DNA of 64,000 nt, taken from NCBI GenBank assembly GCA_945883425.1, contig CAMCXM010000002.1, positions 1 through 64,000 on the forward strand. The letters are read 5' to 3'. The translations under genes and the position numbers were made by a program. Positions 1 to 37,669 of this stretch are shown one piece after another (the stretch's first letter is position 1; each line of letters starts with the position of its first letter). Origin of the DNA: Spirosoma fluviale (GTDB lineage Bacteria; Bacteroidota; Bacteroidia; Cytophagales; Flexibacteraceae). The notes beneath the pieces were generated by a model. The model was not told the DNA's origin. It saw only the letters and a program-made list of their open reading frames with translations, and made no database searches.

Positions 1-584
1 GTGCAGTTTTGGGTTGGGTCGTTTTCAATAATCTTTCTACTGAGTTCGAGGACCAAAGCTTTGTCAGGTGCATGGTATCGTGTTTGAATAAAACTCTCTA
101 ATCTTTTCCACAACTTACCTTTATCTATATGCATAAAAAAGCCTTGCACATCCAGCTTTAAAATATAGGCATCGGTGCTGTAACCATTTGTTTCTGATTT
201 TACAAAGCCATACACCTGATTGATGCCAAATAGCGTGCCTTTATTTTTGCGACAAGCGTAGCTATTTTCAATAAACAGGGTTTCAAACAATGGGTTGAGT
301 TTGGCTATTACAAAATGATGCACCACCCTATCCCGAAAATCCGCTGCAAATACTTCTCTTTTTACAGGCTTTTCTACAATAAAAGCAATGCTACGCCCAG
401 GTTGATAAGTTCCTGCTAATATCTCATCTCTTAATTTGAACAGGTTGGCTTCAAGATGAATTTCAAAACGCAAGGCATTGGATGTGTTTCGCTTGTTTTT
501 CCTGCATTCGTAATATGCTGCAAACAACTCTTCCGTGAATTGAACGGCATCTATTTTTGGAGGTATAAATAAATTGAATTGCAT
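1..584 (-). CDS. DGR-type reverse transcriptase, N-terminal part (truncated by window edge)
   Basis: Not in the supplied ORF track because it is open at the window edge. The minus-strand frame from ATG at 584 has no stops: MQFNLFIPPKIDAVQFTEELFAAYYECRKNKRNTSNALRFEIHLEANLFKLRDEILAGTYQPGRSIAFIVEKPVKREVFAADFRDRVVHHFVIAKLNPLFETLFIENSYACRKNKGTLFGINQVYGF...YILKLDVQGFFMHIDKGKLWKRLESF. RFRDRVVHH-like and LDVQGFF motifs are typical of RT fingers/palm. It lies directly downstream of a TR. Confidence 0.93.
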   Translation of the reverse strand, partial: MQFNLFIPPKIDAVQFTEELFAAYYECRKNKRNTSNALRFEIHLEANLFKLRDEILAGTYQPGRSIAFIVEKPVKREVFAADFRDRVVHHFVIAKLNPLFETLFIENSYACRKNKGTLFGINQVYGFVKSETNGYSTDAYILKLDVQGFFMHIDKGKLWKRLESFIQTRYHAPDKALVLELSRKIIENDPTQNC

Positions 585-594
585 ACTAAATAAA

Positions 595-619
595 AGTCCC
601 GCTGAAAAACAGCGGGACT
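595..619 (-). terminator. Perfect 10-bp GC-rich hairpin between TR and RT, followed by T-rich tract on the minus strand
   Basis: agtcccgctg-aaaaa-cagcgggact. The minus strand continues TTTTATTTA, so it is a terminator-like or structural element of the TR RNA. Confidence 0.65.
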
Positions 620-630
620 GGTTTCTGTTA

Positions 631-824
631 AATCCCTGAGGCAACGGACACTAAAGCCATTTTGCTTATTGTTGTTGTTCCGGTTTGAATTGCCATTGTT
701 GTAATTCAGGTTCCGGTTCCAGGCGTTTGTTGTTGAGTTCTCCGTAGAGGACCACCAGTTGCCGTTGTTGCCAATGTTGTTGTAAGTTCCATTGTTGTTA
801 CGGTTGCCGCCCGGAAGGCCTGAA
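631..824 (-). repeat. DGR template repeat (TR)
   Basis: 194 nt nearly identical to VR1 and VR2. Differences occur only where the coding strand of TR has A (T on the + strand). Translating it gives an Asn (AAY)-rich sequence: [60 protein letters not shown]. Confidence 0.96.
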
Positions 825-961
825 GCGAATGTAACCACTGTTGAATTTGCTACCAGCTACCATTTCCACAAGAGCGATGGACTTTACACCAATAGCGGGT
901 TACCGGATTTAACGGCACGCTTCGGGTGGCCGTAACCAACCCGAACTCTGGCCCTGAGAAA

Positions 962-1306
962 CTATCTTGAAACACTTTTTTGCCATCCTGTTAATTGTTT
1001 TGACACTTCTTCTACATGTTCATTTACCCGAACAAATAGCTTAAGGTCTATTTGTTTCATATCTTTCATAAGTCTGATAAAAAGCCTGATTACCTCAATT
1101 CTTTCTCTTGCTTCCTGTAACACATCTCCCTTTTCTGTGCGGCTATTGGCCCTGAAAATAAGTGTAAGCAAATCTATCGTTTCTTTTTTCAGGCTTTCGC
1201 CTACAGTAAATTTGTACTCCCTGCTAAAGCCACGGCAAAGCTGAAATATCTCCAGCAACATATCGTAAGTTGCTTTATAAACAGGAAGTTCATTGTGCAA
1301 TTTCAT
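962..1306 (-). CDS. avd: Avd-like DGR accessory variability determinant (four-helix bundle / 23S-IVP-like family)
   Basis: 114 aa, helical and charged, MKLHNELPVYKATYDMLLEIFQLCRGFSREYKFTVGESLKKETIDLLTLIFRAN...; sits between VP and TR/RT as in canonical DGRs. Confidence 0.88.
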   Translation of the reverse strand: MKLHNELPVYKATYDMLLEIFQLCRGFSREYKFTVGESLKKETIDLLTLIFRANSRTEKGDVLQEARERIEVIRLFIRLMKDMKQIDLKLFVRVNEHVEEVSKQLTGWQKSVSR

Positions 1307-1373
1307 AGATGCCTTTCTGAAAACAAAAATCGACCGCTTCGCGGTTATGGAGTCAAAGGGTCAAAGGGTCTTT

Positions 1374-3128
1374 TCAATCCCTGAGGCAACGGACACTAAA
1401 GCCATCTTGCTTATCGTCGTTGGTCCGGCTTGAACTGCCATTGTTGTAACCCAGGTCCCGGCCCCAGGCGTCTGCCGTAGTCGAGGTCTCCGTAGAGGAC
1501 CACCAGTTGCCGTTGTAGCCAATGCCGTAGTAAGTCCCATTGACGTAACGGAAGCCGCCCGGAAGGCCTGAAAAACCGCTTTCATTTGTTGCTCCTGTAT
1601 TGGGAGCGGTCCAAAGGGTTGAGGTGCTTTTAAGCTTGCCACCGATGTTCTGAGCGCTCCCACGACTGCCAATTATGTCTGCATCCGTAACACTCATACC
1701 CAAATAAATCTCAAGTGTCTTCCACTCTGGATCGCTCGGCACATGCCAGCCAACAGGGCATAGATTTCTGCTGTCAACAACAGCATACCAGTTGTATAAC
1801 TTGCCATAAGTCGTATTGTTGGCAGCATCGTTGTTGTATATCGCATAAGCGCCGCTGGTGGTGTTTTGCCAAGATGTATTATCCAGATTCGTTGGTATAG
1901 GGTCACCATTCCGGTACTTGCTCACTTTTAAGTTCTCTTTCATCCAAACCTGAGTACCAATCGTTACTGTGGTATAAACGTTTCCATCCACATCCACTGG
2001 ATTGGAAGAAGTAGCCGTCGTCAATGTTTGCTGGTTGCCATAGGCAGTGCCTGCAGAATTGGTCGCATAGGCCCGTATGTAATACACTGTACTTGGACTA
2101 AGACCCGTTATGTTACTCGTAAAAATCCCAGTTCCAGTACCGTTGTTTGTTTTAGTCGTTAATGCTATAGTTGGGTTCTGGCTTGTGCTCCAAACAACCC
2201 CTCTGGCTGTAACTGCGCCACCACCGTCATTGGAAATATTGCCACCACTGCTGGCTGCCGTTGAGGTAATGGATGAAGGAGTTGTGGTGATAAGTGTTGA
2301 TAAAACAACCGGGCAAACTCCGCCGACCGTCCAAGTGAGAGATCCATTGCAAAAAGTAAGAACCTGCCCCTGGGTTTGAGGGGGAGATAAAGTTACCCAC
2401 GCTGTGCCATTCCAATACATCATTTGGTTAACTGTGGTTCCATTGGTATAGCCCGGTCCTGTTGGGCCTGCCGGTCCAGTTAAGCCAATTGGTCCTTGAG
2501 GGCCAGCTACTCCAGTCAATCCTATTGGACCTTGCGGACCAGCAGGTCCCTGTGAGCCGGTTGCGCCTGCCGGACCTGTTAAGCCAATTGGCCCTTGTGG
2601 TCCCGCTGAAGCAGGAGTTGGTTCCCATTTGCCGGTGCTCTGGTTGTAGGCCAGTACATAGCCGTTCTGTGCCCCTTGCAGATTTACTCCTTTTATTTCT
2701 TCTGCACTTCCCGCCGCAAAGGCATAAAAACTGCTGGCCAGTTCCAGTTGGCCCAGACTGGTAAAGGGTGTGTTCGGTACGGTCTGGTATTCTACTTCCA
2801 TCCAAAATCCGCCTTCTTTCCAGGGGATTGTTTCAAATGTAGTGCTTGGTGCACCGTTGCATCCTGTACCCAACACATTGCGGTTTAATTGTAAACTGAT
2901 GAAGCCATTGGCATTCGATACATCCTGATGCAATGCACAGTACACCAACGGGCCATTGGCTCCGCCTTTTTTAAAGGTCAGCCGGATGCTTACCGGCGTA
3001 TTCACCAATGGCTGGTTGTTGGCATCGCGTACCACAGCGGAAAAGCTTACAACCTGGGGTATGTTGCTTTGCGCCATGACTGCGCTGCTTAAAATGGATA
3101 CTAAAAACAGAAGGTAAATGGATTTCAT
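1374..3128 (-). CDS. DGR variable protein VP1: signal peptide, N-terminal domain, collagen-like GXY stalk, Fn3-like domain, FISUMP/CLec domain with C-terminal VR
   Basis: 584 aa. Contains [31 protein letters not shown]... and [23 protein letters not shown]...[26 protein letters not shown] (FISUMP). C-terminus [65 protein letters not shown] matches TR. Confidence 0.95.
1376..1572 (-). repeat. DGR variable repeat VR1
   Basis: 197 nt (194 plus one 3-nt insertion) aligned to TR; all substitutions at TR adenines (coding strand). Confidence 0.96.
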
Positions 3129-3161
3129 ATGACTAAATCTGAATGAATTTTTTGAATGGAA

Positions 3162-3647
3162 TTATTTGGATTTGATGATTTTATAGGAGCCCAGTTTTTC
3201 AAGGCCCTTGATGATTTGCAGTGTGTACATGCCGGCTGCCACATCTTTTAGCATCAGGCTCATTCGGCTGGATTTCACCTGCTCTTTTCTCACCTCCTTT
3301 CCATTGGCATCCAGCAATACCAGAACTTGTCCGGCAGGGTCACCCGATTTCCAGTCAATGAAAACCTCATCGGAACTGGGGTTGGGATAAACTGATACAT
3401 CCACCGTTGGTCGTTCCAAGGTTTTTACCTGCACCGGAACAAAGGTGCTTTTACCATATTCGGAACCCACCGTAAGGGAACCACCGTTGCCACTCAGATA
3501 ACTCCCGAACGAAGCACCCGCCACCGGCTGGAAATTGTTGTTGTCTGAGGCGACACCCGAGAATTGGATCCGCTCAATGCTTTGGGCGTTGGCCACCTGG
3601 CAAATCATACTGAATCCGAAGACAAACGAAAAAAGAAATTTAAGCAT
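3162..3647 (-). CDS. Secreted protein with T9SS type A sorting domain
   Basis: Signal peptide; VYPNPSSDEVFIDWKSG...GKEVRKEQVKSSRMSLMLKDVAAGMYTLQIIKG tail. 33 nt upstream of VP1 on the same strand. Confidence 0.8.
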   Translation of the reverse strand: MLKFLFSFVFGFSMICQVANAQSIERIQFSGVASDNNNFQPVAGASFGSYLSGNGGSLTVGSEYGKSTFVPVQVKTLERPTVDVSVYPNPSSDEVFIDWKSGDPAGQVLVLLDANGKEVRKEQVKSSRMSLMLKDVAAGMYTLQIIKGLEKLGSYKIIKSK

Positions 3648-3789
3648 ATGTAACTTTGAATAGCCCGCTCAGGGCCGGTGGAATAATTTCGCAAAAGTCA
3701 ACCATTCATTCCAATTCTGCAAGACTTTGGAATCGTTCAAATAATTCATCTTCAATGCCTTCGAAAAAAATAGCTTGGAGTGGCGTTAA

Positions 3790-4092
3790 TTGAAGGGGGA
3801 AAGACTTTTTAATTGGATTGAGCCAATTTTAGGCCTACCGGGCCGGCATGCCAAACCGAAGGCATGGAGTCCCTGCATCCTATTCGAAGTTCGTAGTCTT
3901 GCTCTGCAAAGACTACAAACAAGAAGAAAAAAGCCTGATTACCTCTCATCGGGCGAGGTTCTACCTCGTTCGAATTATTTTCTGGCCTCCGGCCAACATA
4001 CTCCTTACTGGTATATGTAAAAAGGATTTTTAGGACTGAGGACCGATGTAGAATAAAAAAGTAAGACAATCCAATAAACCTTAGCTCTGACT
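3790..4092. repeat. Dispersed modular repeat copy A
   Basis: Shares ctgcatcctattcgaagttcgtagtcttgctctgcaaagactacaaacaagaag, atcgggcgaggttctacctcgttcgaattattttctgg and aggatttttaggac...gtaagacaatccaataaaccttagctct with copies near 5.4-5.65 kb and 9.8-10.07 kb. Confidence 0.85.
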
Positions 4093-5286: not shown

Positions 5287-5437
5287 ATGCCGTCATGGTT
5301 GTCAGCAAAGGGATCCGTCGAAAAAGTTGGGGAGAGAAATATTCAGATGCTGGACATCCTATTATTTCAGGATTCGGGTTTTCCAATTCCGTCAAATGAA
5401 TTTCTGGCAATGACATTCAGCAAGATTATTAATGCCC

Positions 5438-5655
5438 TCTCATCGGGCGAGGTTCTACCTCGTTCGAATTATTTTCTGGTCTCCGGCCAACATACTCCTA
5501 ACTCATATATATGTAAAAAGGATTTTTAGGACAGAGGGCCATTTTAGAATAAAAAAAGTAAGACAATCCAATGAACCTTAGCTCTATTATTATGTGTAGA
5601 GGCTGGAAGCCTCACAATAGGCCGAACGAGGCACAGCCTCGCCCGATTGGGGTAT
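5438..5655. repeat. Dispersed modular repeat copy B
   Basis: atcgggcgaggttctacctcgttcgaattattttctgg...gtaagacaatccaatgaaccttagctctattattatgtgtagaggctggaagcctcacaataggccgaacgaggcacagcctcgcccgattgg. Confidence 0.85.
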
Positions 5656-5668
5656 TCATAAACAATTT

Positions 5669-5998
5669 GTGAATTTTGCCTTACCTTTGCACAAAATGCA
5701 TGAAATGAATACAGTTGTGGAGCAATTAAGTAAAGTAAGCCCTGCCATTCGCAAGCGGTTTAAGCTACAAAGCCTGGGTGTATTTGGCAGTTTTGCAAAA
5801 GACAAATATCATGTGGGCAGTGATCTGGACTTACTTTATGATTTGGAAGAAAATGCAAGTCTGAGTTTTAAAGATTTTATTTTGCTGGAGGAAACCATAG
5901 CAAGCCATACTGGTATTTCTGATATTGATTTGGTTCGCCTGCAAAATATCAATCCATTGGTTTGGCTTACAGTAAAAGATACGGTGATTTATGTTTGA
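5669..5998 (+). CDS. MNT-type minimal nucleotidyltransferase (MntA-like antitoxin)
   Basis: LGVFGSFAKDKYHVGSDLDLLYDL (GSx10DxD motif); overlaps the downstream HEPN ORF. True start may be 5696 or 5705. Confidence 0.85.
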   Translation: MNFALPLHKMHEMNTVVEQLSKVSPAIRKRFKLQSLGVFGSFAKDKYHVGSDLDLLYDLEENASLSFKDFILLEETIASHTGISDIDLVRLQNINPLVWLTVKDTVIYV

Positions 5999-6431
5999 AA
6001 AAACTTCCTTACTTTACATCTGTACGACTCTGGAAGCAATTGAAAAAATTGAAATTTATTCCGGGTCTTTTCAAAATGGACAGGAATTGAGAGAAGCCAA
6101 TGACCAAATGAATTTTAATGCCATCAGCCGGCTATTGCTGGCCATAGGTGAAGAAACAAAGAAAATAGAAGAGCCCTTGCTAAATCTTCAACCTCAGATC
6201 AATTGGATTTCTATTGTTGGCCTAAGAAACAGAATGGCTCACGATTACAGAGGGATAGACGCTGATATTATTTTTGATATTGTGAAAGTAGAGTTGTTGC
6301 CTCTGAAAAATGCACTCCTGTATCTGCTGCGTCATTTTTCAATTCCAAGGAAAGATCTTAAAGATTTGGTAACCTCTTCCTATTTTAAGCATATTGGCTA
6401 CGTTTCAACTTATTTACAAATTATTGATTGA
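5991..6431 (+). CDS. HEPN (HepT-like) RNase toxin
   Basis: Carries RNRMAHDY, matching the Rx4-6H HEPN motif with adjacent Tyr; 8-nt overlap with MNT gene. Confidence 0.85.
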   Translation: MFEKTSLLYICTTLEAIEKIEIYSGSFQNGQELREANDQMNFNAISRLLLAIGEETKKIEEPLLNLQPQINWISIVGLRNRMAHDYRGIDADIIFDIVKVELLPLKNALLYLLRHFSIPRKDLKDLVTSSYFKHIGYVSTYLQIID

Positions 6432-6660: not shown

Positions 6661-6699
6661 CATCTCCAGCAACATATCGTAAGTTGCCTTATATACAGT
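6661..6699 (-). pseudogene. Fragment of an avd / 23S-IVP-like gene
   Basis: Minus strand ACTGTATATAAGGCAACTTACGATATGTTGCTGGAGATG encodes TVYKATYDMLLEM; avd at 1247-1285 encodes PVYKATYDMLLEI. 26 nt are exactly identical. Confidence 0.6.
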
Positions 6700-35685: not shown

Positions 35686-35894
35686 ATCGTTTTTACCTGA
35701 GGGATAACGGAAAGGATGAATTGTTTTTCAGGGACACCTCAGGAACGAAAAGCCAATAAAAACAACAGAGATACGCTTCCCGTGATCATCCAAACCAGAT
35801 TGAAAATTTAAGGCATTGCCCCAAACCCCTACTATCAAAGGGACAAATAATCAAAGGGTTGTCGTTAAAGCGCCACGTCGCTGCACTGCGCTTT

Positions 35895-36812
35895 TTAATC
35901 CATGAGGCAACGGACACTAAAGCCATTCTGCCTATTGCTGTTGAACCGGCTTGAATAGCCATTGGTGTAATTCAGGAACCGGTACCAGGCGTAGGTTGTC
36001 GAGTACTCCGTAGAGGACCACCAGTAGCCGTAGTAGCCAATGTTGCCGTAAGTACCATCGTTGAAACGGAGGCCGCCCGGAAGGCCTGAAAAACCACTCT
36101 CATTGGTAGCTCCTATGTTTGGTGAATTCCAACCAGTTCTTGCTTTCATTTTACCTCCTGCCACATTCTCTCCACCAAGATAATTTGCCAAAGTAGTCCA
36201 TTCCTGATCTGAAGGCACGTGCCACCCAACCGGGCATACGTTTCTTTTATCTACCACTGCATACCAATTATACAGCTTACCATATTTTATATTGTTGGCA
36301 TCATCGTTATTGAAAATGGCAAAGGCACCTGAGGTAGTTTTTGCCCATTTATCGTTTGATAGATTGGTAGCAATCGGATCTCCATTTTGGTAGTGGCTCA
36401 CTTTTAAATTTTCCTTCATCCAAACCTGATCTCCAATTCTAACTGTTTCGTACTTATTTCCATCAACATCGGTCACAGTGCCTTCCACTTTGCTGGCTTT
36501 CACTTTAAACCGGACGTTGTCACCCTTGAGGTCGGCACGGTCATTTAATACGGTCCAGGTTATTTTCTTCGTGAGGCCAGCGGTGATGTTTTTCCCCACA
36601 TCTCCAGTCACCGATTTTAGTGGTCCGGCCCATGTGGTTCCATCGTCCGTGCTGCAAAATAAGCTTACCTCATATTTACCGGTTCCTCCTGTAATGCCAT
36701 AGGAAACCACCAGTGTTTGTCCGTCTTGTTCCACATTGGTAACGGTTACGGTTTGGGCGTTCAATCCGGAGAAGACAAACAGGAAGGAAAGGAGAATTAA
36801 ATGGATTTTCAT
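35895..36812 (-). CDS. DGR variable protein VP2 (remote target), FISUMP/CLec-like secreted protein
   Basis: Signal peptide; [22 protein letters not shown]...[27 protein letters not shown]-term SGLPGGLRFNDGTYGNIGYYGYWWSSTEYSTTYAWYRFLNYTNGYSSRFNSNRQNGFSVRCLMD matches TR at every non-A position. Confidence 0.95.
   Translation of the reverse strand: MKIHLILLSFLFVFSGLNAQTVTVTNVEQDGQTLVVSYGITGGTGKYEVSLFCSTDDGTTWAGPLKSVTGDVGKNITAGLTKKITWTVLNDRADLKGDNVRFKVKASKVEGTVTDVDGNKYETVRIGDQVWMKENLKVSHYQNGDPIATNLSNDKWAKTTSGAFAIFNNDDANNIKYGKLYNWYAVVDKRNVCPVGWHVPSDQEWTTLANYLGGENVAGGKMKARTGWNSPNIGATNESGFSGLPGGLRFNDGTYGNIGYYGYWWSSTEYSTTYAWYRFLNYTNGYSSRFNSNRQNGFSVRCLMD
35897..36090 (-). repeat. DGR variable repeat VR2
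   Basis: 194 nt ungapped alignment to TR 631-824; about 26 differences at template A plus one G-to-T at 35902. Confidence 0.95.
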
Positions 36813-36998
36813 TTTAAAAACCGGATTGGGGTGGGTGCGCTTTTATCTAAGTGGGCAAGTAAAGAAAGAGACAGGAATCGGGCAAGGTAAAAGGTGGTTA
36901 TACCAGAAGAATTTTTCAGCAAAGCCCGCATCCATTGGACGAGAATTGGATTTGACAAGGCAATGATTTTATTTGAAAAACAGTACATTTGTCTCATA

Positions 36999-37388
36999 AT
37001 GAATGTGCAGGAGCAAATAGACTATTGGCTTTCGGGGTCCCGGTATGATCTGGATACTGCCGAAGCAATGCTCGCCACAAAACGACTGCTCTATGTTGGT
37101 TTTTGTTGTCACCTGGCAGTGGAAAAAGCTCTCAAAGGATATTTTGTAAAATCCACCCAAACCACCGCACCATACACGCATAACTTGCTTCTTCTTGCAA
37201 CAAAATCAGGAATGACAGAGAAGTTGACAGAATCACAGCTTGACCTTTTGGATCGGCTCACTCCGTTAAACATTGAGGGTCGATATCCTTCCTACAAAGA
37301 CGCTTTGAGTAAGGCACTTTCGTTTGAGTATTGTAAAACTCTATTTCAGGAAACCGTAACCTTTTGCAAATGGACAGAGATGCAGTAA
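36999..37388 (+). CDS. HEPN-domain protein (lacks Rx4-6H motif)
   Basis: QIDYWLSGSRYDLDTAEAMLATKRLLYVGFCCHLAVEKALKGYFV...YTHNLLLLA...EGRYPSY. ORF extends to 36894 but this Met fits the family start. Confidence 0.85.
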   Translation: MNVQEQIDYWLSGSRYDLDTAEAMLATKRLLYVGFCCHLAVEKALKGYFVKSTQTTAPYTHNLLLLATKSGMTEKLTESQLDLLDRLTPLNIEGRYPSYKDALSKALSFEYCKTLFQETVTFCKWTEMQ

Positions 37389-37669
37389 TTAGCTCATTAC
37401 AAAACTATAAGACCCTTCTTTCTCAGCATTTCTCCATTCAGGAAATGTATCTGTTCGGTTCTTATGCCAAAGGAAATTACCATGAAGACAGCGATATTGA
37501 TGTTGCGGTAGTGGTAGATCATCTGGAAGGAGGCTACCTCGATTATACGCCCAAACTGTGGAAACTGAGACGCTCCATCGATATACGGATCGAACCCATT
37601 CTTTTCGAACAAGGCAAAGATCCTTCCGGCTTCCTGGAAACGATCCGCCTAAATGGCATCAGGGTTTAA
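37364..37669 (+). CDS. MNT-type nucleotidyltransferase, partner of the HEPN gene
   Basis: EMYLFGSYAKGNYHEDSDIDVAVVV; 25-nt overlap with HEPN. Confidence 0.88.
   Translation: MQMDRDAVISSLQNYKTLLSQHFSIQEMYLFGSYAKGNYHEDSDIDVAVVVDHLEGGYLDYTPKLWKLRRSIDIRIEPILFEQGKDPSGFLETIRLNGIRV

Follow-up and report, generated by a model that had tools for sequence, protein, structure and literature searches.

A chromosomal diversity-generating retroelement of Spirosoma fluviale with five FISUMP targets and a short repeat array found downstream of variable regions

Diversity-generating retroelements (DGRs) are reverse-transcriptase cassettes that write copies of a template into target genes and make errors only at adenines. 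The draft genome of Spirosoma fluviale has a contig (C2) whose left end carries a duplicated gene end beside an interrupted reverse transcriptase (RT). The questions raised by this locus are whether it is a DGR, which genes it rewrites, and what sets the overwritten copy apart from the template. The 64,000-nt stretch analyzed here, the window, starts at base 1 of this contig.

Results

Layout of the locus

The gene order is VP1-avd-template repeat (TR)-RT with all elements on the minus strand, which is the standard DGR arrangement (Table 1). A preliminary description of the window had proposed this order, and it is borne out by the Avd and VP1 assignments and by an RT frame that is open-ended, as described. 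The RT is truncated because the window starts at the first base of its contig, which marks an assembly gap. The predicted open reading frame at 551-838 (minus), taken in the preliminary description for the TR, is the translated TR plus spacer. The small secreted protein with a type IX secretion sorting tail does lie 33 nt upstream of VP1, a spacing that is the one link between the two genes and makes a common operon plausible. The hairpin directly 3' of the TR is unchanged in a sister species (G003, CANETC010000021.1, a Cytophagaceae MAG) and would be either a terminator-like structure or a piece of the spacer in the TR RNA.

Table 1. Positions of the DGR components and targets, in window coordinates unless a contig is named.
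Feature	Position	Strand	Evidence or remarks
DGR RT, N-terminal half	3-584	(-)	likely ATG at 584-582; open frame 3-584/644; runs off contig; phrog_1423, E 1e-48
DGR RT, C-terminal half	C155:7239-7769	(-)	collinear with the complete sister-species RT (L035)
10-bp perfect hairpin directly 3' of TR	595-619	(-)	AGTCCCGCTG-TTTTT-CAGCGGGACT, then TTTTATTT
Template repeat (TR), 193-nt core	631-823	(-)	TR/VR alignment
Avd accessory protein, 114 aa	962-1306	(-)	PF22296 bAvd, NF033474, phrog_3206
Target-site hairpin downstream of VR1, ACCGC-GAA-GCGGT	1333-1345	(-)	
8-nt array downstream of VR1, CCCTTTGA x2	1353-1368	(-)	
VP1, secreted target with collagen-like repeats and C-terminal FISUMP	1374-3128	(-)	PF09603, E 1.5e-49; PF01391, E 1e-6
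VR1, variable region	1376-1571	(-)	25/67 TR adenines changed, 0/126 non-A
Small secreted protein, 161 aa, type IX secretion sorting tail	3162-3647	(-)	PF18962, E 5e-10
8-nt array downstream of VR2, CCCTTTGATTATTTGTCCCTTTGATAG	35832-35858	(-)	
VP2, second target, C-terminal FISUMP	35895-36812	(-)	
VR2, remote variable region, core	35897-36089	(-)	26/67 TR adenines changed, 1/126 non-A

Other features of the window were recorded alongside the DGR. A 37-nt intergenic piece at 6662-6698, which adjoins a terminator-like inverted repeat, is 95% identical to the avd segment 1248-1284 and is apparently left over from another copy of a DGR. Two nucleotidyltransferase/HEPN-like gene pairs, judged by eye to be of the toxin-antitoxin type, lie at 5669-6431 and 36894-37669, and the latter directly adjoins VP2. 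Near-identical intergenic repeats (blocks of 34-82 nt, 90-97% identity) occur at 3942-4088 and 5436-5585, and positions 3786-3929 are 92% identical to 6643-6785 of contig C155.

Template and variable regions

Window positions 624-824 match 1369-1572 at 85-87% identity, and the near-duplicate of the VP1 3' end noted in the preliminary description is real. On the sense (minus) strand, 25 of 67 TR adenines differ in VR1 compared to none of the 126 other bases (Fisher p 1e-13), and VR1 carries one in-frame 3-nt insertion relative to the TR. This adenine-only pattern indicates that the pair was not made by ordinary duplication and divergence. The TR matches five VRs in the genome (C2:1369, C2:35891, C20:2980, C166:922, and C166:2969). 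VR2, in the same window, and the three VRs elsewhere in the genome go beyond what had been described.

The single non-A change of VR2 is near its 3' end. VR3 differs from the TR at 35/67 adenines and 0/126 other positions, VR4 at 33/67 and 8/126, and VR5 at 31/67 and 11/126; the corresponding values for two sister-species VRs are 32/67 and 5/126, and 33/67 and 1/126. Non-A changes thus number 0, 1, and 0 in VR1-VR3 and 8 and 11 in VR4 and VR5, so three VRs look recently rewritten and two look older, and not every target has been rewritten recently. Each VR is a consensus because the assembly is a draft. Over 246 nt, the TR is 98% identical to that of the sister species, and the VRs are 80-82% identical to the TR. 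At positions 176, 179, and 182, the VR5 non-A changes match the base found in the sister-species TR, which would fit either an older TR version as the template or a 3' end left out of the transfer. The three adenines in the last ~22 nt are invariant in seven VRs, and no clear IMH/IMH* difference was isolated at the VR 3' end. In a genus sibling (G002), a 125-nt TR-like fragment (L066 3502-3626) is 95% identical with few A changes. This fragment was all that was found in G002, which gave no match to the DGR RT, and it is read as a remnant of a lost DGR.

Reverse transcriptase and Avd

Completion of the RT, suggested in the preliminary description, located the other half of the gene, which has a GRYVDD motif, at the end of contig C155, and the whole gene in one open frame in the sister species. 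C2 and C155 map collinearly onto the sister RT with 122 nt between them unread. The sister RT is 92% identical over the shared half, and both halves here are open with neither frameshifted. The sister RT motifs are GLPIGNLSSQVFANFYL, which includes the DGR signature IGNLSSQ, and GRYVDDFV. The [IVL]GxxxSQ segment of the S. fluviale RT falls in the 122-nt gap, and IGNLSSQ is read in the sister RT. An alignment of 16 RT relatives shows that the G.PIG...SQ and YVDD positions are invariant.

The best solved relative is 8ub7_A (E 1e-33 with the single sequence, 3e-48 with a profile), which is the brt of phage BPP-1 and has the same sequence as the NC_005357 brt. Group II RTs (5e-19) and retron RTs score far below it. 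Fourteen of the 21 nearest genomic RT relatives have their own neighboring A-biased TR/VR pair, and placement of the RT in the DGR clade uses this neighborhood evidence and the profiles rather than a tree. Avd scores 55.4 bits against PF22296 bAvd (cut-off 40) and matches the phrog_3206 Avd family at E 2e-25; the NF033474 score of 62.2 bits is below the cut-off of 80. No pairwise match to BPP-1 Avd and no solved relative of Avd were found by sequence. The adenine-only differences, the Avd family, the closest solved RT, the sister-species IGNLSSQ and YVDD motifs, and the TR/VR pairs of the relatives identify the locus as the DGR it had been called. The concern raised with that proposal, that the completed RT might group with intron or retron RTs or be frameshifted, was not borne out.

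Two further RTs in the genome (L002 on C169 and L001 on C9) are not linked to the DGR TR, and the C169 RT carries two retron-typical motifs, one NAxxH-like and the other VTG. A second, different DGR occurs in the genus (L072; sibling G001, contig C111). Its RT is ~34% identical, its TR (1824-1921) and VR (6-103) have 16 of 17 mismatches at A, and another ORF (302-754) lies between VR and RT. This RT gave no match when used as the query in the viral search.

Five exported FISUMP targets

Each of the five VRs is located at the end of a FISUMP (Fib_succ_major) gene (VP1-VP5), and three of these genes are on other contigs. The VR ends at the stop codon and encodes the end of the FISUMP domain. The AlphaFold2 model of this domain has a pLDDT of 42 and does not confirm a C-type-lectin-type fold, and no PDB relative was found by sequence. 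Inspection of the N-termini shows a lipobox-like cysteine in VP3-VP5 (LSSC, LFSC) and a plain signal peptide in VP1 and VP2. At least five exported FISUMP targets are served by one TR, and the cell would therefore diversify several exported binding domains, which are probably displayed at the surface and presumably contact ligands. Earlier reports (PMC4159848, PMC3521204, PMC6642488) already describe FISUMP domains and lipoproteins as DGR targets, as well as DGRs with more than one VR.

The TR has one codon that is stop-prone under A-mutagenesis, an AAG near the 3' end, which reads AAG, AGG, TAG, GAG, and AAG in VR1-VR5. The TAG in VR3 (C20:2980-3176, L013) leaves VP3 12 residues short and was apparently written by the DGR itself. 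AAG-to-stop conversion in the reconstituted BPP-1 system was ~1%, which is below expectation (PMC12875486). Given the draft assembly, the VR3 TAG may be one allele of many, and the next homing event could restore the open reading frame.

A hairpin and an 8-nt array downstream of VRs

The sequence after VR1 reads GAAAAGA-CCCTTTGA-CCCTTTGA-CTCCATAA and then enters the GC hairpin, whose loop is a GNA triloop here and a GRNA tetraloop in phages. VR3 and both sister-species VRs have the same layout, with 8-nt steps and hairpins with GAA or GTA loops. The array is further out at VR2, which has no clean hairpin; VR4 has degenerate array units and a bulged hairpin with a GAA loop; and neither element is clear at VR5. 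The 3.7-Mb genome contains three matches to the array pattern, which was written from those sequences, and all three follow a VR. Two untargeted FISUMP paralogues with readable 3' ends (C70, C1) are without the downstream module. The hairpin motif TTWACCGCGAAGCGGTCGA had 0 matches in 396 Bacteroidota genomes, in a search that also missed the VR1 of this genome (which has CATAACC), and a single match in viral contigs (L073), located between a VR and a TR. A shorter 15-mer hairpin pattern was uninformative, as a control with a scrambled loop matched likewise.

Survey of the module across DGRs

A-biased TR/VR pairs were collected from RT relatives in GTDB and IMG/VR as survey set 1. GC hairpins with a GNA triloop lie after 8/79 VRs and those with a GRNA tetraloop after 18/79, compared to backgrounds of 0.45% (GNA) and 0.47% (GRNA) of random stretches and 0/79 TRs. 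The survey recovers the published rule of a GRNA loop in the hairpin after the VR (PMC3240598) and adds the GNA triloop.

The array pattern was defined as two TTYR units at a spacing of 7-8 nt within 60 nt, a choice made after looking at set 1, where it follows 49/77 VRs versus 26/582 other gene ends, 2/77 TRs, and 6.7% of shuffles. The same pattern was applied to set 2, for which the RT queries were of the proteobacterial-phage type or other divergent viral types. This set consists of loci L397-L551 only, mostly from Pseudomonas-type phages, with redundancy removed inside the set on the basis of the downstream sequence. The array is present at 62/84 of these VRs versus 17/954 gene ends and 1/84 TRs, with overlap between the sets possible as not all set 2 contig names were screened against set 1. 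Unit spacing peaks sharply at 8 nt, with 51 cases in set 1 and 89 in set 2 versus 2-3 in shuffles, accompanied by a spacing of 7 nt in the first set and of 4 nt in the second. The array is found in at least half of the VRs for 17 of 33 RT clusters (60% identity), a wide but not universal distribution. Named phages with the array include Burkholderia phage Magia and Shewanella phage QDWS. The survey statistics ignore phylogeny and are read as effect sizes. No description of the array was found in the open-access papers covered. The array is a reproducible comparative observation that is apparently undescribed within those papers.

VR5, with no array or clear hairpin and the most non-A changes, prompted the idea that VRs without the array drift more. 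This was unsupported across 165 VRs (p 0.88), and the absence of extra non-A drift argues against the array being strictly required.

Discussion

The locus is almost certainly a chromosomal BPP-1-type DGR in which one TR serves at least five exported FISUMP targets. By homology with BPP-1, the TR would be transcribed, RT and Avd would make a cDNA of it that has errors only opposite adenines, and this cDNA would replace the homologous 3' end of the target genes while the TR stays intact. Targets would be marked by the matching VR sequence together with the 8-nt repeats and, usually, the GC hairpin.

That a group II intron, retron, or defense RT lies by chance next to a duplicated end of a FISUMP gene is close to inconceivable. 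The split RT fragments do have weak matches to generic RT models (group II maturase, DRT), but the best PHROG and PDB matches are to DGR RTs, Avd and IGNLSSQ point the same way, and the duplicate is not a plain paralogue since every difference from VR1 is at an adenine. A true DGR that is now inactive in this lineage, with an RT that was lost or is disrupted within the assembly gap and VRs that are frozen, is improbable but deserves more weight. It would fit the contig end that interrupts the RT, the non-A changes accumulated in VR4 and VR5, and the sibling that keeps a TR-like fragment with no RT match. Against it stand the two open RT halves, the intact sister RT, the conservation of a TR from which the VRs differ, and the near absence of non-A changes in VR1-VR3, which makes rewriting recent relative to background substitution. 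We infer that the BPP-1-type DGR is currently active, with the VR3 stop codon weighing on the other side.

The role of the array is a matter for more tentative proposals. The [AC]TTYR units between VR and hairpin (step 8, also 7 or 4) may be a widespread, undescribed DGR cis-element that helps mark the copy to be overwritten, a reading we entertain with some doubt. Such an element may act by melting DNA for cruciform extrusion or by binding the RT/Avd/RNA complex. A multi-frame translation stop cassette with no part in homing is the less likely account. The enriched units TTTAA, TTTGA, and TTTAG contain TAA, TGA, and TAG, a step of 7 or 8 brings successive units into every frame, and stops in all three frames follow 30/77 and 26/84 VRs versus 15% and 7% of shuffles. 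Most VR-downstreams nevertheless lack stops in all three frames, and the step of 8 nt (or 4 nt) is maintained in many arrays whose units are stop-free, TTCAT being the commonest unit in set 2. If the array is a homing element, its presence after the VR and absence after the TR would help explain one-way homing and the recruitment of remote targets. Its confirmation at VRs and not TRs would provide a simple sequence cue by which remote targets could be located when a genome is fragmented and would help in understanding how a DGR tells target from template. The locus also adds one more chromosomal Bacteroidota DGR, with five exported FISUMP targets, and can inform the question of what is diversified in free-living bacteria.

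Treponema denticola and other multi-VR DGRs likewise combine one TR, remote targets, and coexisting untargeted paralogues (PMC4891356, PMC3521204, PMC6642488); their hosts are different, and the accessible portions of these reports do not mention a downstream array. The human-microbiome Bacteroidota DGRs with Fib_succ_major/DUF1566 targets (PMC4159848) share the C-terminal FISUMP domain and some lipoprotein targets, whereas the target set here has five members and VP1 has collagen-like repeats. The BPP-1 DGR (bRT, Avd, mtd) has the same target-avd-TR-RT order, adenine-only mutagenesis, an Avd-family protein, RT GxxxSQ and YxDD motifs (GxxxSQ being read here in the sister species), and a GC hairpin after the VR. 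It differs in that the targets here are chromosomal bacterial genes with five VRs written from one TR, its bRT is only 29% identical, its hairpin loop is GAAA rather than a GNA triloop, and it lacks the 8-nt array. The DGR itself is ordinary, and the array is the lead worth following.
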